Position numbers and translations under genes: made by a program. From Paludibacteraceae bacterium (GTDB taxonomy: Bacteria; Bacteroidota; Bacteroidia; Bacteroidales; Paludibacteraceae), in the NCBI GenBank assembly GCA_017479885.1, contig JAFVBR010000026.1, forward strand, positions 42,184-106,183: a stretch of DNA of 64,000 nucleotides, given 5' to 3'. The notes under the pieces were generated by a model. That model had not been told where the DNA came from. It saw only the letters and a list, made by a program, of their open reading frames with translations, and ran no database searches. This document shows, in pieces, positions 1 to 60,993 of the stretch (its first letter is position 1; every line of letters starts with the position of its first letter).

Positions 1-994
1 AGTTGCCATGGCGGACAATCACTACATTCTGTCCGTCGCTGACAAAGATAGCACTTACCTCGCCTTCGTAAACAGCACGTGCATTGGTGCCTGAGGTCGT
101 TTGTATATATACGCCCCGGTTGTTTACTGTTACGTGAGCAAGTGTGGGGTGTTGTTGTACTCCGAAGTGACCACTGATGAAACCTTTCTCCGTCGGCCAT
201 GGCAGTCTGCCCTTGTTCTTCTCGAAGCCACCGGCAAGCAGTTTCTCCTCTTTGGTAAGAGTGTTGGCTGTACGCTTTACGTCTTTATTGATAAGTTCAT
301 CTATCTTCTTATTCAGATCATTAGCGCGTTTCTGCTGTTTCTTCTGCTGTGCGAGCAGGTCTTTCTCTTTCTTCTGAAGCTCTTGAAGCATCTTTTTCTG
401 CTTGCGTTCATCGCGTGTGAGGTTCTCCTGCTCACGTTTTTGCACAGTGAGTACATCCTGACGGTTGCGTCTGTTCTGCTGAAGTTCGGTGTTTTTCTGC
501 TCTATCTCTTGCTGCTTGTTTTCTATCATTCCAACCTGCTGCTTTCTGTACTGAGCAAACTCCTGCATATACCTCAACCGGCGTACCAGTTGGCGAAAGT
601 TGTCGGCAGAAAGCAGGAACAGAAGAGGGGACTGCTGCATAGAGGCATAATGTGTTTGACGCACAAGTTCGGCATAGTCAGCCTTCAGCAACTCAAGTTC
701 ACGCTGCAGAGTGTCTTTTTGTCGTGCCAGAAACGACATCTCATTGTCGAGTGCACGAATCTCAGTATTGATACCGGAGATAAGCTGCTTGCGCGTAGAG
801 ATATCTTTGCCCAGCAGCGTCAGTTTATTCAGAGTGGCAGTCTCATTGGTTTTGGTCTGACGAAGCATCTTGTTTGTCTCCTCAAGCTGCTTCAGTGTCT
901 GTTGGCGTTGCTTCTGAAGATCTTTCACACTCTGTGCCGACAGCGGTAACAGGCTGCAGAACAGAATTGTCAATATGTAACCTAAGCGTCTCAT
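1..994 (-). CDS. EnvC-like murein hydrolase activator, M23/LytM domain (3' end outside window)
   Basis: About 331 residues are visible before the window edge cuts the gene. Residues 1-20 form a signal peptide ending near LSAQ. Residues ~21-230 are a long coiled coil rich in K, Q and E. A LytM/peptidase M23 domain starts near residue 260 (GRLPWPTEKGFISGHFG). Members of this family act in the periplasm and switch on cell-wall amidases at division. In the LytM domain the usual zinc-ligand block HxGxD reads N-x-R-G-V-Y, so both metal ligands look lost. That fits a non-catalytic activator like EnvC rather than a hydrolase. The start ATG overlaps the stop of the upstream DUF4292 gene (ATGA), so the two are probably translationally coupled. 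Confidence 0.88.
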   Translation of the reverse strand, partial: MRRLGYILTILFCSLLPLSAQSVKDLQKQRQQTLKQLEETNKMLRQTKTNETATLNKLTLLGKDISTRKQLISGINTEIRALDNEMSFLARQKDTLQRELELLKADYAELVRQTHYASMQQSPLLFLLSADNFRQLVRRLRYMQEFAQYRKQQVGMIENKQQEIEQKNTELQQNRRNRQDVLTVQKREQENLTRDERKQKKMLQELQKKEKDLLAQQKKQQKRANDLNKKIDELINKDVKRTANTLTKEEKLLAGGFEKNKGRLPWPTEKGFISGHFGVQQHPTLAHVTVNNRGVYIQTTSGTNARAVYEGEVSAIFVSDGQNVVIVRHGN

Positions 995-1797
995 TTGATA
1001 ATAGCAGAAAGAGAGGTGGGAGTCAGTTTGTCAAGGTTGGCAGGTGTTACATTTGCTTTCTGGTTGAAAACAGGTTGCACGAATGTTATCTGGCATGTGG
1101 CATCAAGTCCGCCTGCAGATATATTCAACTGCATACGTTCAGGGAAAAGAGTTTCGCCGAACAACCGGTGACCTTCGTAGTCCACAGTCAACTCAGCATC
1201 TTTCTCAGGCATGGCGACAGCGGTCTGCAGCAGTTGAAGGTTCTGCTTGTCGGCCACAAAGTTGTAACTCAGGTTGCCTTCAGAAAGAGAGAACTGATGC
1301 TCTGACGTATTCGAACCGGTAACTATCTTCTTCTGCAGCATCTCGCTCTGAGTGTTCTCCAGCATAAACACTCTGTTCATGAAAAGCGACTGAATATCGT
1401 TGTATGCGAGGCTGACACCAGTATGTCTGCTCAGTTCCTGATAGGTCAGACGCACATATCTGCGGTTCATCTTGTCGATAAGAGTAAGATGCCCGGGCAG
1501 AATCTCCATACGATAGAGTTCTATGCCCAACAGAGGCTGCAGAGATATGACAATTGCCGAGTCTGCTATCAGGTTTATCGCACCGCTCACTGCATAGGAA
1601 TGCTGACTGTAGTCGATTTTGAATCTTGCTTTGGATGATTGCATTGATTGGAAAGCGGGTTGCACTGCCACAACCTGCTCAAGCAGTTGGCGCGAGGGAT
1701 CTGTTTCTATTTGTTGTTGTACCTGTTTTACCCGCTTTGTGGTAGAGCAGGAGAGAAGCAGCAATGCTGAGATAATGATTACACTAATCTTTTTCAT
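991..1797 (-). CDS. DUF4292 family lipoprotein
   Basis: 268 residues. The N-terminus has a lipoprotein signal with lipobox (LLLLSCSTTKR, Cys near 16). The rest looks like a beta-rich outer-membrane-associated fold, with segments such as IVISLQPLLGIELYRMEI and LSYNFVADKQ, matching the DUF4292 family as I remember it. Family members in Bacteroidota usually sit between a TPR lipoprotein and an EnvC/M23 gene, as here; the fold resembles LolA/LolB-type lipid carriers, but the function is not established. The start overlaps the TPR gene stop by 4 bp (1794-1797), and the stop overlaps the EnvC-like start, so this is the middle gene of a tightly coupled trio. Confidence 0.82.
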   Translation of the reverse strand: MKKISVIIISALLLLSCSTTKRVKQVQQQIETDPSRQLLEQVVAVQPAFQSMQSSKARFKIDYSQHSYAVSGAINLIADSAIVISLQPLLGIELYRMEILPGHLTLIDKMNRRYVRLTYQELSRHTGVSLAYNDIQSLFMNRVFMLENTQSEMLQKKIVTGSNTSEHQFSLSEGNLSYNFVADKQNLQLLQTAVAMPEKDAELTVDYEGHRLFGETLFPERMQLNISAGGLDATCQITFVQPVFNQKANVTPANLDKLTPTSLSAIIK

Positions 1798-5520: not shown

Positions 5521-5523
5521 ATT

Positions 5524-5618
5524 AGTTGAGAGTTGAGAGTTTAGAGTTGAAAGAAGTTGAGAGTTGAGAGTTGAAAGAAGTTGAAAGTTGAGAGTTGAAA
5601 GTTGAGAGTGGAGAGTTT
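5524..5618 (+). repeat. Heptamer array, GTTGARA family
   Basis: About 95 bp of near-continuous GTTGAGA/GTTGAAA units with occasional GTTTAGA and AGAA interruptions. It fills the gap between the TetR gene start and the dehydratase gene stop. Other copies are at 7644, 9236, 14266, 26032, 27068 and 34409, all in the same orientation. Confidence 0.9.
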
Positions 5619-5623
5619 AATGT

Positions 5624-8197
5624 TTAGAGTTGTTTGCGGGCATTGTCAACAAGGAAATGCAGGCGGTTATAGACGTTGGCTTCGGAGGTAGAGCTATCGA
5701 AGTCGAGGAAAAGCATATTCACATCAGGATAGAGAGTACGGAGACGCTTCTCTATACCTTTGGAAATGACATGGTTGGCAATGCAGCCGAAGGGTTGCAG
5801 AGATATGACATTGCTCACACCCGACTCCGCCAAGTGGCATATCTCGCCCGGCAAGAACCAACCCTCGCCGAAGTCTGCCGCTGTAGAAATAACCTGTTTG
5901 CTCAAACGGGCTATATCGAATATGTCGGACGAAGGACGGTAGAAAGGATATGAAGCACATATACGGTCATACTTTTTGACTATATGCCTGATATAGCGGT
6001 ATATGCTGTCGGTTATCCACACAGGAGTGTGCTCCGCACGTATATTCAGTTCACGATTGGCATGACGGCTGACAAAAGATGTTGAGAAGAACTCGATAAG
6101 GCTCGGAGGCACCACTTCGACACCCTCTTGCAACAGCCACTTGACTACATTCTTGTGCGAGAAGGAGTTGTATTTCACATATATCTCCCCCACGAGTCCC
6201 ATCACAGGCACGCGTTTCTCACGGTCGATAATTGAGTTATACTCCGCTACCGCCTCCGTCATCAGTCGCTGCAAGGCTTTCTTGTCTCTCAGGCGCACTG
6301 CCTCTGTGCCAAGATTGATATATCTGTTACGGAGTTCAAGGGCAGAGACGTGCGCAGAAGGCAAGGTTCGCACCGCTGCCGAGTGATAGAGACGGTTGAG
6401 TGCATCGGCATAAGCCATTGCATGAATGAGCATGGGAGCCACCTTACGCCATGGAATATCGAACCCTGGTTGGGTGTTGCTAATATCGGAGCTTGTGGCA
6501 AGAGAGAGCAGTGGCACATTCTCGTATCCGCTGCGTACCATGGCATTCTTGATAAGAGAGTAGTAGTTGGTGGCACGGCATTGCCCGCCTGTCTGAGTGA
6601 TGATGACGGCTGTGTTAGAAAGGTCGTACTTGCCACTGTTGAGAGCATTCATTATACTGCCGATTACTATGGTAGCAGGGTAGCACACATCGTTGTTGGC
6701 ATATCGGAGTCCCGTTTCAGCATCAGCCTGACTGCCTGTGGGCAGGCATACAAGATTATAGTCTGCCAAAGAGAAGAGTGCAGGCAGGAACTCGGAGTAG
6801 CCTTCGGCAAAATATGGGGCGATGATAGTCCTGCGAGTATCTTCGGGCATGAAGGTCTTGGTAGTGACGAATGGTTCGGGTGGTTCTGCAGGTGCAGGTT
6901 CGGTATTATACACACTCTCAACGAGAGAGCGAATGCGCAGGCGAAGCGAACCGATGTTGTTGACATCATCTATCTTGAGGATAGTGAGGTTCTTGTGATA
7001 ACGGTTCAATACAGACTGCACTTCATCGAGTATGAAAGCATCAGGCCCGCAACCGAAACTTGTCAGTTCAACCATCTGCAGATAGGGGTAGTCACACTCA
7101 CCTACGAAATGCGCCGCCTTGAACACCCGGTTGGGGTATGCCCACTGAGTGACAGCATTGAGTTCTTCATACACCTCGGAACCTGCATGACGGGCGGCGT
7201 GCTCGGTGATAACATCGATACCCATGTCAGCAACCGCTGAGGATATCTTATGCTCAATGAGAGGGTCGGTATGATATGGTCTGCCCGCAAGCATGATGAC
7301 CATTCTGCCTTCCTGGCGGGCTTTGTCAAGTATTTCGAGACCACGCCGCTCAAGCGTGGAGAGATAGTCTTCTTGTGCTGCCACTGCCTTTTGTACTGCT
7401 TTCTGTGCGAGTGACTTGCTTACTCCGAGAGTGCCGAGATACTGCACACACGAGGCGGTGAGCATCTTCATGCTGTTGAATGAGACGACAGGCGCGTCGA
7501 AGGGTATGCCGTAGTTCTTTTCAGTGTCGATGGCACTGCGCAGTACATCGGAATAGGCAGACACAATCGGACAGTTGAACGAGTTGCGGCTCTTCTCATC
7601 CTCTTTCTGCTCGTAAACGACAAAGGGGTAGAAGATTCTTTTAGTTGAAAGTTGAGAATGGAAAGTGGAAGGAAGTTGAGAGTTATGAGCAGAGAGTTTC
7701 TCCACCAAATCCATCACATGACCATGCATCAGTTTCGCGGGAAAACAGATGTTGTCCGCCATTATGGTACGCACTCCCTTCTCATAGAGGCGCACTGTAG
7801 AAGTGCCTGAGAGGACGGTCTGAATGCCACATTCGGAGAACAACGTGCGCCAAAAGACCCAGTTCTCATAGATGCCGAGACCGCGGGGAATACCGAGGAC
7901 GGTGGTTTGACGGTCGTTTGACAGTGGTTTGACAGTGGTTTGACGGTGGTTTGACAGTGGTTTGACGGTCGTTTGAGAGTTGGCAAAGAGAAGACGGTAC
8001 TTCTCGTGGAAGAGGTTGACACCCTTCTGCTTGGTTTCGCGGAAACTGCTGTACACCTTCTCGCAGTTGTTTCCTGAGGCAAAAGTCTTACCATTGGCGA
8101 ACGTAAAGAGCCGTACTTGACAATGGTTCTCGCAACCACTGCACACCTCAAAACGTGTCGTATAGGAGTTGGATTCTATCAATTCTGATATATTCAT
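5624..8197 (-). CDS. 2-hydroxyacyl-CoA dehydratase-related protein (DUF2229/HgdB-like)
   Basis: 857 residues. The N-terminus has a cysteine cluster (CSGCENHC, ~19-26; NNCEKVY, ~43-49). The DUF2229-type core follows (IPRGLGIYENWVFW, DNICFPAKLMHGHV, MLAGRPYHTDPLIEHK). The second half resembles the HgdB-like subunit (PTGSQADAETGLRYANNDVCYPATIVIGS, LQPFGCIANHVISKG). In many Bacteroidales this polypeptide is fused behind two BadF ATPase domains; here it is a separate gene 228 bp downstream of them. Family enzymes use ATP-driven one-electron chemistry on CoA thioesters, but this subfamily has no assigned substrate. Two short tandem-repeat insertions, at about residues 72-98 and 171-185, are in frame and encode low-complexity linkers (see repeat entries). 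Confidence 0.85.
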   Translation of the reverse strand: MNISELIESNSYTTRFEVCSGCENHCQVRLFTFANGKTFASGNNCEKVYSSFRETKQKGVNLFHEKYRLLFANSQTTVKPLSNHRQTTVKPLSNDRQTTVLGIPRGLGIYENWVFWRTLFSECGIQTVLSGTSTVRLYEKGVRTIMADNICFPAKLMHGHVMDLVEKLSAHNSQLPSTFHSQLSTKRIFYPFVVYEQKEDEKSRNSFNCPIVSAYSDVLRSAIDTEKNYGIPFDAPVVSFNSMKMLTASCVQYLGTLGVSKSLAQKAVQKAVAAQEDYLSTLERRGLEILDKARQEGRMVIMLAGRPYHTDPLIEHKISSAVADMGIDVITEHAARHAGSEVYEELNAVTQWAYPNRVFKAAHFVGECDYPYLQMVELTSFGCGPDAFILDEVQSVLNRYHKNLTILKIDDVNNIGSLRLRIRSLVESVYNTEPAPAEPPEPFVTTKTFMPEDTRRTIIAPYFAEGYSEFLPALFSLADYNLVCLPTGSQADAETGLRYANNDVCYPATIVIGSIMNALNSGKYDLSNTAVIITQTGGQCRATNYYSLIKNAMVRSGYENVPLLSLATSSDISNTQPGFDIPWRKVAPMLIHAMAYADALNRLYHSAAVRTLPSAHVSALELRNRYINLGTEAVRLRDKKALQRLMTEAVAEYNSIIDREKRVPVMGLVGEIYVKYNSFSHKNVVKWLLQEGVEVVPPSLIEFFSTSFVSRHANRELNIRAEHTPVWITDSIYRYIRHIVKKYDRICASYPFYRPSSDIFDIARLSKQVISTAADFGEGWFLPGEICHLAESGVSNVISLQPFGCIANHVISKGIEKRLRTLYPDVNMLFLDFDSSTSEANVYNRLHFLVDNARKQL
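7644..7684 (+). repeat. GTTGARA heptamers inside the dehydratase gene
   Basis: A diverged heptamer array lies in frame in the minus-strand gene and encodes the segment HNSQLPSTFHSQLSTK. The conserved text on both sides (DLVEKLS and RIFYPFVVYEQ) continues in the same frame. Confidence 0.85.
7905..7981 (+). repeat. 11-bp tandem array inside the dehydratase gene
   Basis: Seven 11-bp units, GTTTGAC(A/G)GT(G/C), the last one diverged. Read on the minus strand they encode an 11-residue repeat, QTTVKPLSNHR / QTTVKPLSNDR, between LLFANS and VLGIPRGLG. Eleven is coprime with 3, so all three reading frames give the same cyclic peptide, with no stop on this strand. Confidence 0.9.
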
Positions 8198-8231
8198 AAT
8201 TTACAAGGAGTTATAGCAAGGAGTAGGCTTG

Positions 8232-8308
8232 AGGTCTCTATCAGGTCTCTATCAGGTCTCTATCAGGTCTCTATCAGGTCTCTATCAGGTCTCTATCAGG
8301 TCTCTATC
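8232..8308 (+). repeat. 11-bp tandem array, AGGTCTCTATC x7
   Basis: Seven perfect head-to-tail copies of AGGTCTCTATC in the 228-bp gap between the BadF-type activase gene and the dehydratase gene. Its unit is unrelated to the 11-bp units at 7905 and 49498 but has the same length. Confidence 0.97.
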
Positions 8309-8335
8309 GGGGTGGCTGCGGGTTTATCGAGTCAT

Positions 8336-8401
8336 ATATATGAATGAGGGTGGTTAAATATATGAATAAGGATGGTTAAATATATGAATGAGGATGGTTG
8401 G
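8336..8401 (+). repeat. 22-bp tandem repeat x3
   Basis: Three adjoining 22-bp units of the form ATATATGAATGAGGRTGGTT plus AA or GG, with one or two changes between copies. It lies next to the 11-bp array in the same gap; the unit is twice 11 bp. The rest of this gap shows no gene. Confidence 0.92.
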
Positions 8402-8425
8402 AATTCGGAGTTATAATGTTCATGT

Positions 8426-10234
8426 TCAGGATTTTGCATGTTGCTGCAGAGCATAGAGTGCTGCACCATAGGCCCCCATCAGTTCGGGCATATCGCTGAA
8501 AGCGACAGTGCAACCTGTGAGGAGTTCGAGGGCACGCACCACAGAGTGATTGCGCATGGTGCCACCCTGAACCACAATATGTTTGCCGAGTGAGGTTACA
8601 TCGTGCAGTTTGAGTACCTTGTAGAGACAGTTCTTTACAACAGAATAGCTGAACCCTGCCGCTATATCTTCGACTTTGGCACCTTCGCGCATTGCCTGTT
8701 TGACTTTGGAGTTCATGAAGACGGTGCAGCGCGTGCCGAGGTCGCAAGGGTGTTGCGCGGTGCATGCCTTGCGCGCGAAATCTTCCACCTTATAGCCGAG
8801 GCGGGTAGCAAAAGTCTCGATGAAGGAGCCGCAACCAGAGGAGCAAGCCTCGTTGATTTCGATACGGCGGATTGAGCCGTTCTCGACCCAGATGGCTTTC
8901 ATATCCTGGCCGCCGATGTCGAGCACGAAAGAGAGGTCAGGCATGAGAGACTTTGCCCCCATGAAATGCGCCATGGTCTCCACTATACCATAGTCAAGAG
9001 AGAAAGCGGTCTGCAACAGACTCTCGCCATAACCGGTTGCGCAGGATATGATGTTGATATCAGACATTCCTTTCGGGTCTGCCATCAACTTGTCATGCAT
9101 GCGGTTCAGAGCTTCAGAAAACGCCCGAAAGCTGTCACCGTTATTGCGGCTGTAGTCGGTATAAACAAGTTCGCCGGCTGAGTTGAGAAGCACAAGTTTG
9201 GTGGTTGTAGAACCGGAATCGACACCGAGGAAGTAGTTGAGAGTTGAGAGTGGAGAGTGGAGAGAAGTTGAGAGTTGATAGTTGAAAGTTGAGAGTTGAG
9301 AGTGGAGAGAAGTCTGCTTGCTCTGCAGCCATTCGTCGTACTCCTCGTCAGAAGAGAACAGAGCCGGCAGTCGTGTGCTGTAGTCAATATTCATATCATC
9401 TGGCTTAGAGAAAGAGGCGATGATATGAGAAAGCATAACTTCGGGGGCAGACTCAGACGCAATCAGAGCGCACCCCAGAGCAGGGATAATCTGGGCATTG
9501 TCAGGAATGGTACAGTCGGCCTCAGTATAGCCGAGAATATCGAGAAAAGACTTTCTCAGACGAGGAAGAAAAGCAAAAGGTCCGCCACAGAAGAACATCT
9601 TGGGCATGATGTCCATACCTCGTGCGAGAGACCCAATCACCTGAGTAGCAACCGCATGAAACACGGAAGCGGCAATATCAGCCTTGGAGACATTGCGCGC
9701 AATAAGATTCTGGATATCCGTTTTAGAAAAGACTCCGCACCGAGAGGCAATGGGATAGACCGTCTGCGCCTGCTCAGCCAGAGAGTTGAGTTCGGAAGTG
9801 TCAACACCGAGCAGGGTAGCAGTCTGGTCGAGGAAAGCCCCTGTTCCTCCGGCACATGAGCCGTTCATACGTATATCGGGTACCTTGCCGTCCTCGAAAA
9901 AAATCATCTTCGAGTCCTCTCCGCCCATATCAACAAAAGTATGCACGTCGGGGTAGAAATGGGTGACAGTGCGTGCAGACGCCACCACCTCCTGCACAAA
10001 AGGTGCAGAGAAATGCTCGGCGACACCCATACCCACACTTCCGGTAATGACTACGGAGAGAGAGCACTCGCCAACGCGCTCGAGCATAGAGCGAAAAGTG
10101 CGCTGCGCCGCAGCCGAGACATCTGCATTATGACGTCGATAGTCGAAGAAAAGCAATCGGGAATGCTCGTCAAGCAAGGCAACCTTAAGGGTAGTGCTAC
10201 CGATATCTACGCCGAGACTATAGTTTTTTCTCAT
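8426..10234 (-). CDS. BadF/BadG/BcrA/BcrD-type ATPase (2-hydroxyacyl-CoA dehydratase activase), two domains
   Basis: 602 residues made of two tandem ASKHA-fold ATPase domains. Each starts with the phosphate-binding motif: [16 protein letters not shown] (7-22) and [16 protein letters not shown] (~334-349). Each then has a GGxD signature: [15 protein letters not shown] and [16 protein letters not shown] [4Fe-4S]-ligand pattern is present twice ([28 protein letters not shown]). Activases of this type use ATP hydrolysis to inject an electron into the partner dehydratase, here probably the product of the downstream gene. The linker between domains (~residues 307-333) is a GTTGARA heptamer array read in frame ([14 protein letters not shown]). 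A TACTTTTG promoter is upstream. Confidence 0.9.
9236..9313 (+). repeat. GTTGARA heptamer array inside the activase gene
   Basis: 78 bp of GTTGAGA, GTTGAAA and GTGGAGA units in frame between the two ATPase domains. The minus-strand translation is a repeated SQLSTF/L-N-type heptapeptide, with no stop codon. Confidence 0.92.
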
Positions 10235-12279: not shown

Positions 12280-13149
12280 ATGACGGTAGAGATTGACAAT
12301 CAGTCGGGGTTCTGCTTCGGAGTGGTCACTGCCATCAGGAAAGCGGAGGAAGAGTTGCAGAAAGGCGGCACACTGTATTGCTTGGGCGACATAGTGCATA
12401 ACGGGCAAGAGGTGGAGCGACTGTCGGGTTTAGGATTAGTAACCATCAACCACGAGCAATTCGGGCAACTGCCGAGAGGCGCCAGAGTGCTGATACGCGC
12501 CCACGGCGAACCTCCTCAGACCTACATCACTGCAGAACAAAGAGAAGTGGAGATAGTGGACGCCAGTTGCCCTGTGGTAAGAAACTTGCAGAAGAAGATA
12601 AGAGACACATACAGACAGCATAAAGACGCACAGATAGTTATTTTCGGCAAACCCGGACATGCCGAAGTCATAGGTCTGCAGGGTCAGACCGAGAACAAAG
12701 CGATTGTGGTAGAGGGAGCGGAAGACATAAAGAAGATAGACTTCTCAAGAGACATATATCTGTTTTCGCAAACAACCAAATCGGTCGAGGAGTTTGAGAG
12801 TCTGGTAGAGAGCATACGGACACAGTTGCAGTCAGAAGGCAACAAAGTGAACTTCGAGTGGCATGACACTATCTGCGGACAAGTAAGGAACAGAGTAAGG
12901 CACATAAGAGAGTTCGCGGCGGGTCACGACAAGGTGATATTTGTAGGAGGCAGGAACTCTTCAAACGGCAAAGTGCTCTATCAGCATTGTATCTCAGTCA
13001 ATCCGGACACTGTATTTATAGAGAGCGCCGCCGAACTGACAAACGAATACATTGCTTCATGCAAAGGAATGAACATAGGTATATGCGGCGCCACCAGTAC
13101 TCCGCTTTGGTTGATGGAGGAAGTGAGGGAGAAGATTGTTAATAGTTAA
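12280..13149 (+). CDS. ispH: 4-hydroxy-3-methylbut-2-enyl diphosphate reductase
   Basis: 289 residues. IspH catalyses the last step of the MEP isoprenoid pathway, reducing HMBPP to IPP and DMAPP with a [4Fe-4S] cluster. The three cluster cysteines are in place: C12 (GFCFGVV), C97 (DASCPVV) and C199 (DTICGQV). The active-site text AHGEPP (74-79), GKPGHAEVIG (123-132) and NSSNGKVL also matches. It follows cmk by 47 bp. Its last codons and TAA stop are formed by the start of an AATAGNN heptamer array, so the array has been joined right at the gene end. Confidence 0.97.
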   Translation: MTVEIDNQSGFCFGVVTAIRKAEEELQKGGTLYCLGDIVHNGQEVERLSGLGLVTINHEQFGQLPRGARVLIRAHGEPPQTYITAEQREVEIVDASCPVVRNLQKKIRDTYRQHKDAQIVIFGKPGHAEVIGLQGQTENKAIVVEGAEDIKKIDFSRDIYLFSQTTKSVEEFESLVESIRTQLQSEGNKVNFEWHDTICGQVRNRVRHIREFAAGHDKVIFVGGRNSSNGKVLYQHCISVNPDTVFIESAAELTNEYIASCKGMNIGICGATSTPLWLMEEVREKIVNS

Positions 13150-13282: not shown

Positions 13283-14266
13283 ATGGAATACGAAATAAAA
13301 ACGATAGGTGTACTCACCTCGGGTGGTGATTCGCCCGGTATGAATGCTGCAGTACGTGCCGTGACGCGTGCTGCCATAGCAAACGGAATAAAAGTGAAGG
13401 CTATCTTCCGCGGCTACAAAGGTCTGATGGATGATGAGGTTCAGGAATTCACCACTCAGGACGTGAGCGGCATAATACAGCGCGGAGGCACGATACTGAA
13501 GTCCGCCCGCAGTGAGGAGTTCAAGACACAGGAAGGCAGAAAGCGTGCATGGCAGACGCTGAAAAAAGAGAAGATTGATGCGCTGATTGTGATAGGCGGC
13601 GACGGCACCTTCACCGGGGCACGACTTTTTGCACAAGAGTATAATATCCCCATCATAGGTATTCCGGGCACTATTGACAACGACCTCTGGGGCACCGACT
13701 CTACGATTGGTTACGACACCGCACTGAACACAATAATGGATTGCGTGGACAAACTGCGCGATACAGGCACCAGCCACGAGCGGCTTTTCCTTGTGGAGAT
13801 AATGGGTCGTGATGCAGGTTTTCTGACTCTCAATGCCGCAATAGCCGCAGGTGCGGAAGCAGCCATCATTCCTGAGCGTGCAACAGTTGCAGAGCAATTG
13901 GAAGACGCGATAGGTCAGGGGCGCAGGAAACACAAGAACTCGTCGATAGTGCTTGTACAGGAGCATGCGATAGAAGGCGGTGCCCAGGCAGTTGCAAAGG
14001 TAATAGAGAAAGAGCACCCCGAATACGGTACGCGCGTTACCATTCTCGGTCACCTTCAACGGGGAGGCAGTCCGACTGCCTTCGACAGAATACTTGCTTC
14101 GAGACTGGGAGTAGCCGCCATACAGGCATTGCTTGAAGAGCAGCGCTCGGTCATGGTAGGTTTGCAGAACGGGCAAGTGGTGTACGTGCCACTATCGAAA
14201 GCCATCAAACAGAAGAAAGACATAAAAGACGACAAATGGCAGGCACTGCAGGTACTGTCTATTTAG
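13283..14266 (+). CDS. pfkA: 6-phosphofructokinase (ATP-dependent)
   Basis: 327 residues, the standard length for bacterial PfkA, which phosphorylates fructose 6-phosphate in glycolysis. ATP-binding [12 protein letters not shown] (14-25) and GGDGTFTGA (105-113), and the catalytic loop [14 protein letters not shown] (~126-139) are intact, as is the substrate segment [10 protein letters not shown]. The Gly after GGDGT that marks ATP- rather than PPi-dependence supports ATP as donor. It lies between two repeat arrays: AATAGNN before and GTTGARA beginning exactly at its stop codon. Confidence 0.97.
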
Positions 14267-14430
14267 AGTTGAAAGTTGAGAGTGGAGAGTGGAGAGAAGT
14301 TGAAAGTTGAAAGTTTAAAGTGGAAAGAAGTTATTTAGTTGAAAGTTGAGAGTGGAGAGTGGAGAGAAGTTGAGAGTTGAAAGTTTAAAGTGGAAAGAAG
14401 TTATTTAGTTGAAAGTTGAAAGTTGAGAGA
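14266..14430 (+). repeat. GTTGARA heptamer array with a ~70-bp higher-order duplication
   Basis: GTTGAAA, GTTGAGA and GTGGAGA heptamers from the pfkA stop to just before the phosphoesterase start. A block of about 70 bp (ending TTTAAAGTGGAAAGAAGTT) is present twice in tandem, so the array has grown both by unit and by block. Confidence 0.93.
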
Positions 14431-14437
14431 TAAAGAT

Positions 14438-23460: not shown

Positions 23461-23505
23461 AGTTTCAGGTTTCAAGTTTCAAGTTTCAGGGTTCAGGGTT
23501 TTCCG
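23461..23505 (+). repeat. Heptamer array, GTTTCAR family
   Basis: GTTTCAG and GTTTCAA units upstream of the RNase H gene. The same family and orientation appear at 25314 and 61049. Confidence 0.9.
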
Positions 23506-26021: not shown

Positions 26022-26031
26022 TTATAGGATA

Positions 26032-26139
26032 GTTGAAAGTTGAGAGTTGAAAGTTTTTATCCTCGTTTTGCTCGGAACGATCGGCGGAGCCGTAGAAAGA
26101 AGTTCTTTAGTTGAGAGTTGAAAGTTGATAGTTGAAAGG
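26032..26139 (+). repeat. GTTGARA heptamers, left flank of the S23-type gene
   Basis: Two short arrays (26032-26055 and 26109-26139) separated by unique sequence, ending 2 bp before the ATG of the four-helix bundle gene. Confidence 0.85.
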
Positions 26140-27057: not shown

Positions 27058-27067
27058 TGCCGAAATA

Positions 27068-27118
27068 GTGGAAAGTTGAAAGTTGAAAGTGGAAAGAAGT
27101 TTAATAGTTTAGAGTTAA
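27068..27118 (+). repeat. GTTGARA heptamer array
   Basis: GTTGAAA, GTGGAAA and GTTTAGA-type units between the DUF456 and DUF2461 genes. Confidence 0.85.
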
Positions 27119-27147
27119 AAGTTTTTCTGAATAACGAAATAGCGAAG

Positions 27148-33538: not shown

Positions 33539-34405
33539 CTACAAATCCATCAACTTCAGGCAACGTGCAAGAGAATCGGTCCAATGCGGAATACGGATGC
33601 CGAAAGCGGACTGAATCTTCTGCTTGTCAAGCACGGAGTAGTGCGGGCGGGGAGTAGGCTGCGGATACTGCTCCGAACGTATTGGAGACACTTTGCAACT
33701 GATACCTGCCAGACGGTGAATCTCACATGTGAAATCATACCACGAGCATACGCCGAGATTAGTGAAATGATAGATATTGTCTGACGTTTGCTCAAGAGTT
33801 TTGCTATTCTCTATAATACACAATATTGCGAATGCAAGGTCAGCGGCATAGGTGGGAGTGCCAATCTGGTCATAGACAACAGAGAGCGAGTCACGCTCCT
33901 TGCCGAGGCGAAGCATGGTCTTTACGAAGTTGTTGCCGAAACTGCTGTAGAGCCACGCAGTCCTTATTATAACTGCACTCGGGCAGGCTTGCTGTATCAA
34001 CCGTTCACCTGCCAGTTTGGTTCTGCCGTAGGCAGTCTGCGGATTGGGAGTGTCGGTCTCGCGATAAGGCAGACAGGCATTGCCGTCAAACACGTAGTCG
34101 GTAGAGATATGAACCAGCAGAGCCCCCGCCTCGTGAGCAACCACTGCCAGATTCTCCGCAGCCAGTGCATTAAGCAGATATGCCGTCTGCTCATCCCGCT
34201 CTGCCCTGTCAACATTGGTGTAGGCGGCACAATTGACAACGGCATCAATATTATTGTCCTTCACAAAAGCGGCAACGGCACTGCGGTCGGTGATGTCAAG
34301 TTCCTGCACGTCGGTAAAGAACCAAGAGTGGTTCCCGCTGTCTTGGGCAATAACGCGCATCTCATTGCCGAGTTGACCATTTGCTCCTGTGACGAGAATG
34401 TTCAT
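33539..34405 (-). CDS. rfbD: dTDP-4-dehydrorhamnose reductase
   Basis: 288 residues of extended short-chain dehydrogenase fold: NAD(P)-binding GANGQLGNEM (7-16), the catalytic YxxxK in YGRTKLAGE (~128-136), and STDYVFDG, PQTAYGRTK, TAWLYSSFGNNFVKTM typical of RfbD/RmlD. It carries out the last step of dTDP-L-rhamnose synthesis. rfbC lies directly upstream, on the far side of a heptamer array. rfbA and rfbB are not in the window. Confidence 0.95.
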   Translation of the reverse strand: MNILVTGANGQLGNEMRVIAQDSGNHSWFFTDVQELDITDRSAVAAFVKDNNIDAVVNCAAYTNVDRAERDEQTAYLLNALAAENLAVVAHEAGALLVHISTDYVFDGNACLPYRETDTPNPQTAYGRTKLAGERLIQQACPSAVIIRTAWLYSSFGNNFVKTMLRLGKERDSLSVVYDQIGTPTYAADLAFAILCIIENSKTLEQTSDNIYHFTNLGVCSWYDFTCEIHRLAGISCKVSPIRSEQYPQPTPRPHYSVLDKQKIQSAFGIRIPHWTDSLARCLKLMDL

Positions 34406-34408
34406 TAT

Positions 34409-34512
34409 AGTTGAGAGTTGAGAGTTGAGAGTTGAAAGAAGTTCTTAAGTTGAAAGTTGAAAGTTGAAAGTTGAGAGTTGAGAGAAGTTGGATTGTTGAA
34501 AGTTGAGAGTTA
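34409..34512 (+). repeat. GTTGARA heptamer array between rfbC and rfbD
   Basis: About 100 bp of GTTGAGA/GTTGAAA units starting at the rfbD start and ending at the rfbC stop. Confidence 0.92.
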
Positions 34513-35046
34513 TAAGTGAGAAAAGCGGGGGTGTTTCTTGTCCTTCTCGGAAAGAATCATCTTGTCGGCAGGAATCTGCCAGTCGATACCAAGGTCAGGG
34601 TCGGTGAGCAGAATACCGCCTTCCGACTCCGGGCAATACAGGTTGTCGCACTTGTATGAGAAGAGTGCCCGCTCGGAAAGCACACTGAACCCGTGGGCAA
34701 ACCCGCGGGGAATGAAGAACTGGCGATGATTCTCGGCAGTGAGAACCACAGAGTACCACTGCCCGAAGGTAGGGCTGCCTTTGCGTATATCCACTGCCAC
34801 GTCAAGCACTTTGCCTTCAATACATTGCACAAGTTTTGCCTGTGCATGCTCACCTTTCTGGAAATGCAACCCGCGCACCACTCCGAACTGCGACTGCGAC
34901 ATGTTGTCCTGCAGGAAACGCGCAGTTATGCCTGCTGCCTGATAACGCTCTTCATTATAGGTTTCCGCAAAGAAACCCCGGGCATCCTCAAACACCTTCG
35001 GCTCAATAACGAGCAGACCTTCTATGGGAGTAGTGTGTATTGTCAT
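34510..35046 (-). CDS. rfbC: dTDP-4-dehydrorhamnose 3,5-epimerase
   Basis: 178 residues from the ATG at 35046 (MTIHTTPIEGLLVIEPKVF); the longer frame to 35130 would include the promoter. Typical motifs: DARGFFAETYN, FLQDNMSQSQFGVVRGLHFQ (with the catalytic His), VLDVAVDIRKGSPTFG, FIPRGFAHGFSVLS. It epimerises the dTDP-sugar before rfbD. Its promoter overlaps that of the divergent MATE gene. Confidence 0.96.
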   Translation of the reverse strand: MTIHTTPIEGLLVIEPKVFEDARGFFAETYNEERYQAAGITARFLQDNMSQSQFGVVRGLHFQKGEHAQAKLVQCIEGKVLDVAVDIRKGSPTFGQWYSVVLTAENHRQFFIPRGFAHGFSVLSERALFSYKCDNLYCPESEGGILLTDPDLGIDWQIPADKMILSEKDKKHPRFSHL

Positions 35047-49208: not shown

Positions 49209-49497
49209 ATATAATTACATCATTTCGAAACTTTACCTGTCTCAACATCTCTACTCTGCCCCTTCGGCAACCATTTTCACCTACTCTCCCTCTCGTAAAA
49301 TATATCATCATGTTCACACTCTGTGTCCGCCGTGAACTCTCCTCTGCAACAGATGTGCTAAACAAGCACCTTTGCATGAACTCCGGAACAAAGATTCCCT
49401 AAAGTCCGTAGGAAATCTATAACCCCATTAAAATCGCATTTTCCCTTTGCAAATCCCGATATTTTACATAACCTTTGCACCTGATTATATGCATTTA

Positions 49498-49552
49498 TTA
49501 GTATGTGATTAGTATGAGATTAGTATGAGATTAGTATGTGATTAGTATGTGA
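49498..49552 (+). repeat. 11-bp tandem array, TTAGTATGTGA x5
   Basis: Five adjoining 11-bp units, TTAGTATG(T/A)GA. The surrounding 49209-49594 shows no gene. A TTTG-N20-AACCTTTG near-promoter lies at 49445-49477 on the plus strand. Confidence 0.95.
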
Positions 49553-49594
49553 TTAACCTATGTGTTACATATAACCTGTTAATTATCACATAAT

Positions 49595-59400: not shown

Positions 59401-60993
59401 CCACGTACCTTTCTCTTTCTCCTGAGGGGCGTTGGTGGTACTCTTCAGCATCTTCAGTATCAGAGCGTTGGGAGCACGCAGGCTCTCGCTTGCATCGGTT
59501 GAGAACTCACCCACCTGATACACCTGACCGCCATAAGTATATTCGTATGCCACCATCAGCACCTCGTCCTGATTCAGTGCCGAGCGCAAAGAGATATAGC
59601 CGAGGGTTGAGTTGAGAGTGTATTCCGAACTTGAGAGCAGTCGAGCAGACTCCACTTTCTCGTAGTCTATACCGCCCGTTATATCGTATGCCGAGAGGGC
59701 TGCAAGTACAGCGTTGGACTGCTGAATATCGCGCACGTCGGGCATGGAGGTTATCTCTTCGTACAGAGTGTTCGCCTTGTTGTAAGGTTGAACCGATGTG
59801 CCCTGTTCTGCCCAATGGCTGCTGCTTATATGTTTCGACTGAGCCTCTGCAAGGTCTTGAAAAGCAATGATATTGCGGCTTTCGTCATAGCGACCGCGCT
59901 TGTTGGTAACCCACACCTCGATGCGGTTGATGGTCACACCCGAGGCAATATACGGCAGTTGCGCCATGTTCTTCTCATAGTTGTCGCGGAACCAATGCGC
60001 GAGGAAGAAATGGCGGTTCTCGTCGTAGGCATCGATGTCTATCTCGAAGGAGGTGGTCTGTGCACCGCCCTGACTGCTCACCGACTGACTCTGAGAGTTC
60101 TGCTGCGAGATAAGCGCCTGAACCGTGAACTTGCCGAATTTGAGGTTGGTCTTGATACCGAACAGGGCCTGACTGCCGCGAATGAGGCTGCTGTTCAAAC
60201 CCATCGACACGTTACCTGCCTCTATTGACTGAATGATGTCGTCCTCCTTGCCTTTGTAGTTGAGTTTGATGTTCTGACGGTCGAAGTCGAACGACGACTC
60301 TGTGTTGTAATTGAGGTTGAAGTTGAGTTTGTCACCCACCTTGCCGTTCACACTCAACTGTATCTTCTCGTCGAAGTCGAAGATGTTGTTGTTGCGTGCA
60401 CGCTGTGTAAGTGACGGATTGTCGATATATTGATGCTTGAAACCAAACAGCAGTTCTGCGCTTCCCTGCATCTTGAGTTGAACTCCGCCGGGACCGAACA
60501 CCTTGTCCGCGGGACCGATGTTGAACTTCATATCGGTGATGTCGAACTTGCGCTCGTTGTTGTGCTCCACCTCGCCTATCTTCTGCTGCCAATACTGCTT
60601 CATCGCTTGGTCGGCACTCCACTCGCGGTACTCCTTTTCGGTCATCAGATAGGGCGTTGCTATGTCCACATCACCTATCTTGGTGTGCATTATGTAGTAG
60701 CCTGTTTCGGGCTGATACTCTACCTCTTTCTTTACGTTCTCAGGGTCTTGCAGGTCGAGCGAGGAGCGTGGTGAAGTCAGTTGGTCGTAGGTGTCCTGAC
60801 CGTACCCGCTTACCTGCAAGGGAGCCATAATGACGCTGTCAGCGGCAGATAAAAGCGTATCACCTCCGACTGTAGTGTCGGAAGTGACATCTGCTGTCTG
60901 CGCCGTTGCCGTCAGAGGCAACACCACCGTAATGAGCAGCAGCATGAGCCGCAGCGGCATTAGCCGCGTTATCAACAGCCTTGTCTTATTCAT
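53479..60993 (-). CDS. sprA: Type IX secretion system translocon SprA (Sov)
   Basis: 2504 residues, right for SprA/Sov, the huge 36-strand outer-membrane barrel through which T9SS cargo leaves the cell. Signal peptide 1-31 (ending TATAQ). N-terminal SprA region: DVATPYLMTEKEYREWSADQAMKQYWQQKIGE and FNIGPADKVFGPGGVQLKMQGSAELLFGFKHQYIDNPSLTQRARNNNIFDFDEKIQ. A second copy-like block lies further on, and long runs of alternating strands reach the end (INLQFFYDHQGTTPLISSSYPIRSDNAGINIKLMLTR). It lies next to ruvA, as in other Bacteroidota. With porQ and several sorting tails in this window, a working T9SS is very likely. Confidence 0.96.
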   Translation of the reverse strand: MNKTRLLITRLMPLRLMLLLITVVLPLTATAQTADVTSDTTVGGDTLLSAADSVIMAPLQVSGYGQDTYDQLTSPRSSLDLQDPENVKKEVEYQPETGYYIMHTKIGDVDIATPYLMTEKEYREWSADQAMKQYWQQKIGEVEHNNERKFDITDMKFNIGPADKVFGPGGVQLKMQGSAELLFGFKHQYIDNPSLTQRARNNNIFDFDEKIQLSVNGKVGDKLNFNLNYNTESSFDFDRQNIKLNYKGKEDDIIQSIEAGNVSMGLNSSLIRGSQALFGIKTNLKFGKFTVQALISQQNSQSQSVSSQGGAQTTSFEIDIDAYDENRHFFLAHWFRDNYEKNMAQLPYIASGVTINRIEVWVTNKRGRYDESRNIIAFQDLAEAQSKHISSSHWAEQGTSVQPYNKANTLYEEITSMPDVRDIQQSNAVLAALSAYDITGGIDYEKVESARLLSSSEYTLNSTLGYISLRSALNQDEVLMVAYEYTYGGQVYQVGEFSTDASESLRAPNALILKMLKSTTNAPQEKEKGTWDLMMKNVYSLGASQMSSDKFELYVNYRNDSVGTTLQYLPEGDVKGKQLLRVMNLDRLDSKNNQSADGKFDYVEGYTAISSSGRIIFPVLEPFGSHLKKAIGDDALAEKYIFQELYDSTLVVAQELSEKNKFRLTGKYKGTSGSEIRLNAMNIPRGSVTVTAGGAKLTENVDYTVDYTMGTVTILNQSILESGTNVDVQLENQSTFSMKRKSLMGAHLEYAFTKDLVIGGTIMYMNERPLTTKVNTGSEPLSNTIWGVNGSWKKEFMWLTNGLNAIPWINATQPSSIQVNAEFAHLIPGHTREVGKAGTAYIDDFEATKTNIDIHYPNYWYLASTPSRYDESKLSNNLDYGKNRAHLAWFTVDQIFGHAYPNTPQHIRDDLNAMSDHRTRIVYEQEIFPNRQALANEEQRLSVLNLSYYPQERGQYNISADEIGADGRLTKPETRWGGMMRRLDNTDFETANIEYIEFWMMDPMLTNPDPSYEGGDLYIDLGDVSEDILKDGKKAFEHGLPVSESEQQNVETTIWGRVPKTTSTVTAFSNEAGARLRQDVGLNGLSTDEEFAFEYDGKHPYADYVSALRGKLNADVRAEWEDDPFSPLNDPSGDKYHYYRGSDYDRQELPVLARYKHYNGTEGNSPATEDNTESYGTAATLTPDMEDINADNTLSEYEKYFEYHVSLRPTDLAVGKQYIAQEYITKVKLQNGESADVRWYQFKIPIRDPNVYQKVGGVRNFKSIRFARLYLTGFKQETHLRLASLDLVRGEWRSYSKPLYPVTQPPVTDGQMDVQAVNIEENSSKTPVNYVLPPGISRQTDPGQAQLIQQNEQAMVLRVHDLAPADARAVYKKTGYDMRQYKRLQMFVHAEQMTEDPTLKNGDLSVFIRLGSDMKQNYYEYEIPLELTPEGLYNNSNEQDRWKVWPLENEFDFPFEALTDAKVARNKAKRSGTAGVSNTEPYVVYDDAHARPDCRITVMGNPTLGEVDNIMIGIRNKSGEPHSGEVWVNELRMSQFNEEGGVAAMGNVALAVSDIAQVNVAGRLETAGYGSIESNVLDRNMDNMYQLSVSAALEAGRLFPEQAKLQIPLYFAYTNETLSPKYDPLDTDIKLSDNLDTYETKAERDSVKAMSNTVQKSTNFSVSNVKVNIKSKKKDMFYDPANFSISYSRMEQDKHTPELERDMQKEDKGSFTYSYNFNPKPWEPFKKIQKVQKLKWISELNIYYLPQSWGFTTDMRRQYTHMRMRDFTGENNGINKQDLTFSKDWMWNRNFDFKYDLTKNIKFSFQTAMNSTVEEGRYTPEIIRDYAFTNDYYEAWRDTVLRSMKTMGVPYQYQQVFTASVSVPFNRFKSLDWITANGSYNANYNWNRTATRNSQDGEEQAELGNSITSMRSWQADGALNFETLYNKSKYLKQVNQRFNGRPQRSRFRPKTYTQTISVKADSTVSLSHRLGSDRLQISITDSKGKKVQLKTKSIDSNTIEISSKKDMSNLTVSITSQDPNARTPLQTAGDLGMRFLMLIRKAQVTYRSTNSLVVPGFYPQAGFMGQRKTGDVYAPGFDFAFGFVPNNFLEKAKERGWLSPDTTVVQPAVKSSTTDFDIKVTLEPFPGFKIQVNGKRYTSSSSSIIYTYDHLQETMTGSFNITQVAIATAFDKIGKAEDNYAAASFDRFLQYRDAMRERVQAQYEGVVYPSTGFMRGSAMAGKVYDKSKGQINRNSADVLVPAFLAAYTGRDVNRATTNPFLGILNILPNWSITYDGLGKLPWMRDHFRSVNLTHAYTCKYAIGSYGTYSTWVGAGDGNNKQVGFVRDVETDMPIPSSSYDISSVSLTEQFSPLIGVNVAMKNSMTAKVEYRKQRNLTLNVTSAQLMEGATNEFVAGFGYTIKDLNFTAKNKDGRQKKVSNDLKLSVDVSYKDIKTLLRKVEENITQASAGNKVLGIKVTADYVLSQKINLQFFYDHQGTTPLISSSYPIRSDNAGINIKLMLTR

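Follow-up and report, generated by a model that had tools for sequence, protein, structure and literature searches.

In-frame heptanucleotide arrays in a two-domain activase and other conserved proteins of a Paludibacteraceae bacterium and its relatives

In-gene tandem repeats are usually expected to have periods that are multiples of three, to lie near gene ends or to serve as switches. Here, we describe arrays of AGTTGAR-family heptamers in a Paludibacteraceae bacterium that are read in frame in the interior of seven conserved genes, the best studied being that of a two-domain acyl-CoA dehydratase activase, in which we confirm that such an array encodes residues 308-334. Within the genes looked at, across this genome and its relatives, the dominant period is one not divisible by three and unrelated units reoccupy the same loops; as related species carry other heptamers at like soft spots, repeat DNA appears to keep rewriting protein loops. 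The position of the activase array, its open frame, the predicted disorder of its peptide, the replacement at the linker, the recurrence at loops, the scarcity of arrays in genes and one 49-nt block common to two loci were all obtained by computation, and the peptide itself is presumably translated in the cell and probably neutral. Our preferred reading, to which we give a probability of about 0.6, is that a genome-wide process generates and copies heptamers and that selection filters them to in-frame, mostly loop or linker positions.

In-gene arrays in the window and the source genome

The window, that is the whole 64,000-nt stretch analysed, comes from a 2.8-Mb draft assembly of 50 contigs, and the nearest relatives of its activase protein are MAGs labelled Paludibacteraceae, Salinivirgaceae or Bacteroidales, many of them from the rumen. 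Profile searches matched two stretches of the activase with both TIGR00241 (282.5 bits, cut-off 125.4) and PF01869 (252.1 bits, cut-off 31.5). As the preliminary description of this DNA had it, the array lies in frame between the two ATPase domains, the first reaching to residue 258 and the second starting at 334-336 (Table 1), and it adjoins the first strand of domain 2. TRF gives it a period of 7 and 10.3 copies (9235-9309), and a scan with the unit AGT[TG][TG]AR places it at 9233-9312. The heptapeptide repeat described earlier is indeed encoded, though only in pieces, the units being a mixture of seven AGTTGA and three AGTGGA with AGAAG interruptions between them. The likeness to selfish palindromes that had been drawn does not hold for a 7-nt unit that is neither palindromic nor self-complementary, and no mobile unit was noticed in the material analysed; period 7 in several head-to-tail copies fits the dispersed heptanucleotide tandem repeats of bacteria. 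In an AlphaFold model of the activase (40 sequences, mean pLDDT 85.4), whose best PDB matches are the activases 4ehu, 4eht and 1hux, residues 312-329 form the only segment of three or more residues with pLDDT below 50.

Table 1. Features of the window and the seven in-frame, in-gene arrays of the source genome
Feature	Position in window	Strand	Residues	Placement	Basis
Two-domain acyl-CoA dehydratase activase gene, 602 aa, bearing an array	8426..10234	-			ORF and profile matches
Activase, ATPase domain 1	9461..10222	-	5-258		TIGR00241; PDB matches 9gai_C, 7yyl_E
Activase, AGTTGAR-family heptamer array	9233..9313	gene -, G-rich strand of array +	308-334	between two ATPase domains	TRF, unit scan
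Activase, ATPase domain 2	8450..9229	-	336-595		PF01869; solved activases 1hux, 4eht align from residue 334
Downstream gene, 857 aa, DUF2229 half of a larger protein	5624..8197	-			ORF, profile match, locus comparison
DUF2229 protein, second in-frame AGTTGAR-family array, +16 residues	7640..7690	-	170-186	inside domain	
In-frame 11-nt array, GACGGTGGTTT unit on + strand	7898..7976	-		another indel-rich site of the DUF2229 protein	
Intergenic 11-nt array, AGGTCTCTATC	8232..8308	+		between activase and DUF2229 genes	
AGTTGAR array	5522..5633	+		between genes, overlapping 3' end of DUF2229 ORF	TRF, unit scan
AGTTGAR array, 37-nt exact block in common with activase array	14260..14434	+		between genes	unit scan
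Two AGTTGAR arrays	26026..26139	+		intergenic	unit scan
AGTTGAR array	27064..27124	+		intergenic or ORF edge	unit scan
AGTTGAR array	34404..34518	+		between genes	TRF, unit scan
GSCFA-family protein, domain 21-255			array 68-80	inside domain	
GH149 1,3-beta-glucan phosphorylase, domain 15-1114			array 902-914	inside domain	
DPP-IV, domains 94-437 and 536-737			array 505-516	between domains	
TrmH/SpoU-type RNA methyltransferase, domains 11-58 and 102-242			array 80-100	between domains	
PreA, DHO_dh domain from 92			array 67-89	just before domain	

Across the window, the unit scan found nine intervals on the + strand (eight strong, and a weak one at 59602) and two weak ones on the - strand. Of 20 dinucleotide-shuffled controls, 19 gave no interval and one gave a single interval, and 199 permuted units gave a mean of 2.1 and a maximum of 15, so that one or more permuted units score too in this repeat-rich window. 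In the genome, genus and order searches a reversed pattern was of little use as a control because AGTTGA read backwards is itself, and period, permutation and shuffle controls were used instead. The G-rich strand lies on + in all eight strong intervals; of the other contigs, several show one orientation only and others both. Orientation is possibly linked to replication direction, and GC skew at the arrays, taken as a leading-strand marker, occurs with both signs.

Genome-wide pattern searches counted 62 and 102 overlapping AGTTGAR-family matches, part of which were listed individually. The material analysed from the source genome, 33 stretches plus the window, yielded 48 array intervals, nine of which were flagged inside ORFs; two of these, lying close to an N-terminus and within a protein's final residues respectively, were set aside, leaving seven in frame with conserved sequence on both sides. 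ORFs of at least 150 aa cover 85% of this material, yet only 7 of the 48 intervals lie in conserved genes, which bears out the earlier view that the family elsewhere fills gaps between genes. Further in-ORF heptamer arrays of the source genome (L195 6278-6354 and L191 2047-2103) belong to the families GGTTTCA and AAAGTCR, and the GTTTCAG family is also present in the window at 23462 and 25313.

By Pfam and NCBIfam placement, four of the seven arrays lie between domains or just before one, and three lie inside one. The site in DPP-IV overlaps a 14-residue gap in two solved homologues (5olj and 7y4f), the aligner placing the gap slightly differently in the two, and the match of PreA to a solved dihydropyrimidine dehydrogenase begins directly after the array. 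The array regions of GH149, GSCFA and PreA have lengths equal or near to those of some relatives; the array-like stretch of PreA is as long as in the relative L326 and the seed GAGTTGAAAG is common to both, and this array looks seeded in place.

Inside the DUF2229 protein, encoded next to the activase, the alignment has the appearance of a clean insertion. The segment at the array has 37 residues in the window, and among 103 homologues (2 of 105 matches that did not span the region were dropped, and a few genomes are represented twice among the 103) 94 have 21 residues, 4 have 22, 1 has 20 and 4 have 28-30. A rule that in-gene arrays occur only in variable loops is thus not general, this site being nearly constant in length. 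Most loci outside the genus carry a single ORF of about 1400-1470 aa that spans the activase and DUF2229 parts; here (window 5624-10234) and in most genus members seen there are two genes, of ~600 and ~850 aa, and the gap between them contains 11-mer and 22-mer repeats. Intergenic repeats of the genome and the genus often have a period of 11 or 22; arrays noted in this connection lie at 8232-8308, 8336-8399 and 49497-49568 of the window, and the 11-mer array at 7898-7976 is in frame within the DUF2229 gene.

The seven arrays do not all use the same strand. Pure CAACTTT and CAACTCT units give one cyclic peptide in every frame and no stop, and pure AAAGTTG and AGAGTTG units give a stop every seven codons. 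The frame logic of the preliminary description is therefore sound for pure units, but at other loci of the genome the G-rich strand also serves as the sense strand, its stop being abolished by a variant unit or by an interruption. The RNA methyltransferase and PreA read the G-rich strand, which rules out confining coding to the CAACTYT strand. The 52 array intervals outside the seven genes contain 154 AGTTGA, 45 AGTTTA, 33 AGTGGA and 2 AGTGTA units, the share of AGTTTA, which places TAA on the C-rich strand, being 45/234. Among the in-gene arrays, the five with the C-rich strand as sense contain 21 AGTTGA and 4 AGTGGA (AGTTTA 0/25) and the two with the G-rich strand as sense 7 AGTTGA, 2 AGTTTA and 2 AGTGGA, counts that are small, come from units that are not independent within an array and owe their freedom from stops partly to the picking of open frames.

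Replacement and turnover at the activase linker

The preliminary description had expected homologues of the activase to lack about 25 residues at the array. We aligned 101 sequences including the window, five partial or own rows and exact duplicates being excluded, and all 100 others have residues there, which rules out a simple insertion of ~25 residues. The counted linker segment has 64 residues in the window, 51-57 in 85 of the other sequences and 60-78 in the remaining 15, 8 of which form one clade (L042-L044, L052, L121, L122, L125 and L126). Measured from a conserved K-Q/E to domain 2, the window has 27 residues and its three nearest relatives (L112, L113 and L114) have 14-16, which are repeat-free and unrelated to the window's array. 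The presence of a linker in the homologues argues against simple insertion and for replacement, and because the nearest relatives hold 14-16 unrelated residues there, the alignment suggests that the array replaced a linker with a net gain of 11-13 residues. The phenomenon is broader than had been supposed, and its simple-insertion version is wrong for the activase site. The linker DNA of L031, a Paludibacteraceae record, is identical to that of L114, from the genus member G069.

The linker has also turned over among close relatives. On an activase tree computed without it, seven close species (end branches 0.009-0.026) have three unrelated linkers at this site: AGTTGAR arrays encode that of L042, L122 and L125, an ATCGTCA-type repeat that of L043, and a GGTCTAACAG-type repeat that of L044, L121 and L126. 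On the same tree, L125 nests with L044 and L126 (support 99/98). The array label, with the window included, needs three changes, two of them being forced by well-supported branches, and 394 of 500 shuffled labels do equally well, so that the tree shows turnover and not clustering. The array-bearing activases of L042, L122 and L125 are under purifying selection, with dN/dS of 0.11-0.14; between the window and L112 the ratio is 0.12, with a nearly saturated dS of 1.8. Sequence similar to the GGTCTAACAG-type element was also seen in L308, L352 and L140/L365. In one genome, G064, the activase is broken away from the linker, with no array at the break.

Recurrence in related genomes

Three exact AGTTGAR-family units were found in 73 of 121 genomes of the genus and, in the order, in 33 of 295 genomes and 27 of 183 genera, the source genome being included in each count. 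For five of the seven genes, we searched 60 further genomes of the genus for orthologues and aligned these (up to 30 loci each, own included), and, as had been anticipated, related genomes carry such repeat peptides in otherwise conserved proteins. A scan blind to the unit, run on 162 loci of relatives, found 44 period-7 arrays well inside ORFs of at least 150 aa, together with 14 in-ORF arrays of period 14, a multiple of 7; periods 4, 5, 8, 10, 11, 13, 16, 17, 19 and 20 gave 0, 0, 8, 0, 3, 0, 6, 1, 0 and 0, and a set of 80 named loci from mixed taxa, some of them genus members, gave 9 arrays of period 7, 4 of period 8 and 2 each of periods 11 and 16, the ORFs in these scans being stop-to-stop frames and not gene calls, and the loci having been chosen around genes that bear arrays here, so that the counts are not genome averages.

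The sites recur as well as the period. Twenty of the 37 in-gene arrays of period 7 in the five orthologous genes overlap the position occupied in the source genome, the random expectation being 2.7, in a set where L285 and L293 are one genome and the species are related and not independent. By gene, the arrays of relatives at that site number 3/3 in DPP-IV, 4/11 in the methyltransferase, 11/13 in GSCFA, 2/2 in PreA and 0/8 in GH149. The GSCFA loop alone holds seven distinct heptamers in 11 genomes (10 of the 11 relatives with an overlapping array, and the source genome). In L249, the RNA methyltransferase gene has one AGTTGAR-like array at the linker and another at a second loop, which bears other heptamers in L238, L248 and L253. 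In the DPP-IV gene of G035 (L364, G035:C24), an AAATTTC array occupies the loop used in the source genome and the frames differ on its two sides, a break that may be a cost of such arrays, a switch or an assembly error.

Origin of the arrays and earlier work

A block of 49 exact nt, which includes an AGAAG interruption and an AGTTGAT unit, is common to the activase array (at 9235-9283) and to an intergenic array at C42:56192. Among 50 arrays compared, three pairs have at least 35 nt in common; in 15 unit-shuffled controls the longest common block was 28-35 nt, one control having a pair at 35. This single 49-nt case points to copying between loci, at least once and in one direction or the other. 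The C42 array (L196 about 6001-6110) passes in phase, at AGTTGAT, from AGTTGAR into the AATAGCG/TAATAGY family, which also forms window arrays at 13140 and 23866. Copying from intergenic arrays is not general, as the AATTACM unit, found in 16 of 61 genomes, has in G034 only two exact matches, both in the gene itself.

The process that we favour would make 7-nt-period DNA of several unit sequences throughout genomes of the genus, regardless of genes, and would have copied such DNA between loci at least once. Selection would remove nearly all copies from genes, and those that survive there would keep the frame by their total length, lack an in-frame stop and lie mostly where a loop or linker can accommodate foreign residues. 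An array would replace or extend the old loop, giving a disordered low-complexity peptide that could later be replaced by another array. The machinery may be replication- or repair-based, with slippage at near-matching seeds and template switching or recombination between arrays. Among the results that stand against this account are that none of the eight in-gene arrays of relatives in GH149 lies at the site of the source genome and that the DUF2229 site is not variable in other species. In a wider and more tentative form, to which we would give less than even odds, a genus-wide and possibly order-wide process writes 7-nt-periodic DNA, soft loops are its recurrent landing sites, and linkers are exchangeable cassettes in which heptamer arrays, 11-mer arrays and hairpin elements alternate at one position. 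If this were true, protein loops of the lineage would owe most of their evolution to repeat rewriting rather than to point mutation.

Much of the above could also arise by local birth, in which each array arises on the spot, through slippage at a chance seed within a weakly constrained loop, nothing is copied, and the loop was variable first with the repeat as its by-product. The different heptamers at one loop would fit, as would the seed that PreA has in common with L326, the occurrence of the AATTAC unit of G034 solely at its in-gene site, and the orthologue alignments, in which relatives that lack arrays show many indels at several of the array sites. We nevertheless think it unlikely that local birth is the only source, given that the 49-nt block, with its irregular AGAAG and AGTTGAT, goes beyond all 15 shuffles, that the AGTTGAR family occupies dozens of places in the source genome and that the DUF2229 site does not vary in length. 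A phase-variable switch, with gain or loss of one unit shifting the frame and turning an enzyme on or off, has in its favour that 7 is not a multiple of 3 and that the two halves of the G035 DPP-IV are in different frames; this is the sole frameshift at an array noticed in the orthologue tables, however, in a comparison with two split genes checked in detail and one genome per species. Degenerate, interrupted units should moreover lower slippage, and the arrays are found in the middle of genes for household-type enzymes (RNA methyltransferase, PreA, activase) rather than for surface antigens, all of which makes a switch quite improbable.

The low dN/dS of the gene in L042, L122 and L125, which keep an array at the activase linker, would fit an adaptive linker, its Ser/Thr/Leu/Asn-rich peptide having a function of its own such as flexibility or partner binding; with three unrelated linkers among seven close species, and no array there in the three nearest relatives of the window, we hold this to be very improbable. 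That the arrays are artefacts of mis-assembly or of decayed genes is scarcely credible: the source is a draft in 50 contigs and one relative's gene, the DPP-IV of G035, is broken at such an array, but the full-length activase ORF matches both domain profiles, like in-frame arrays occur in several separately deposited assemblies, and dN/dS in relatives is well below 1. The repeated occupation of loops by unrelated units offers natural replicates for two old questions, namely the preference of bacterial genomes for 7-nt repeats and the amount of sequence that a protein linker requires at all. Low-complexity peptides such as SQLST, ITNYQLP, KVESQKSK and LRVES in their conserved proteins are likely repeat-derived, and annotators would do best to exclude them from alignments, HMMs and functional inference.

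The heptanucleotide repeats that fill a variable loop of the cyanobacterial tRNA-Leu intron offer a parallel from a structured molecule, although the loop there is one of RNA and not a protein linker. The nearest precedent for the arrays themselves is the TAACTGA repeat of a Beggiatoaceae genome, also present in five Bacteroidetes and in Cyanobacteria, which in the excerpted text of MacGregor (2015, PMC4679880) is likewise a dispersed, mostly intergenic heptanucleotide tandem repeat with stops in all frames on one strand and an open heptapeptide on the other, and with intergenic regions that, as here, hold several heptamers. Eleven ORFs with stop-free repeats are reported in the same excerpts, the peptide being mostly at the periphery or ends of the protein; here, in contrast, the unit differs, and conserved enzymes carry the arrays in interior linkers and loops, where arrays of different units turn up at the same loops; an array can take the place of the ancestral loop, and variant units make the stop-prone strand usable as well. 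The claim that such repeats were undescribed in Bacteroidales is consequently half right, since heptamer repeats, their frame logic and ORFs with stop-free repeats had been reported for the Beggiatoaceae genome, and the repeats also for five Bacteroidetes. Our search of the open-licence literature found no account of different heptamers repeatedly occupying the interior linkers of conserved proteins, nor of interior-linker replacement by heptamers in Bacteroidales; for heptamers in Prevotella the literature search found nothing, and among the matches listed none was relevant to tandem repeats in Bacteroidales. The G-rich heptamers of Xanthomonas and Nostoc are dispersed and partly intragenic (68% intergenic in a Nostoc strain), form quadruplexes through their G runs and are argued to act on expression, in-frame loop replacement not being described in the excerpted source (PMC4692102).

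Rickettsia palindromic elements (RPE), MITE-like palindromic units of ~150 bp, similarly place a repeat family in frame in unrelated metabolic genes whose proteins are thought to tolerate the added peptide, according to the excerpted account (PMC10969869). AGTTGAR arrays are in frame in seven unrelated conserved genes, but they are not palindromic units of about 150 bp; unlike RPE as characterised in that excerpt, they consist of 7-nt tandem units of many families and take the place of loop residues. Strongly hairpin-forming, G+C-rich sequences translated in frame were also seen in L365 (G064), L082, L110, L065 and L353, at variable positions in these proteins or related ones. No second copies of them were found in the loci at hand, and they may represent an RPE-like type of in-gene element in Bacteroidales, with dispersal as a candidate property.
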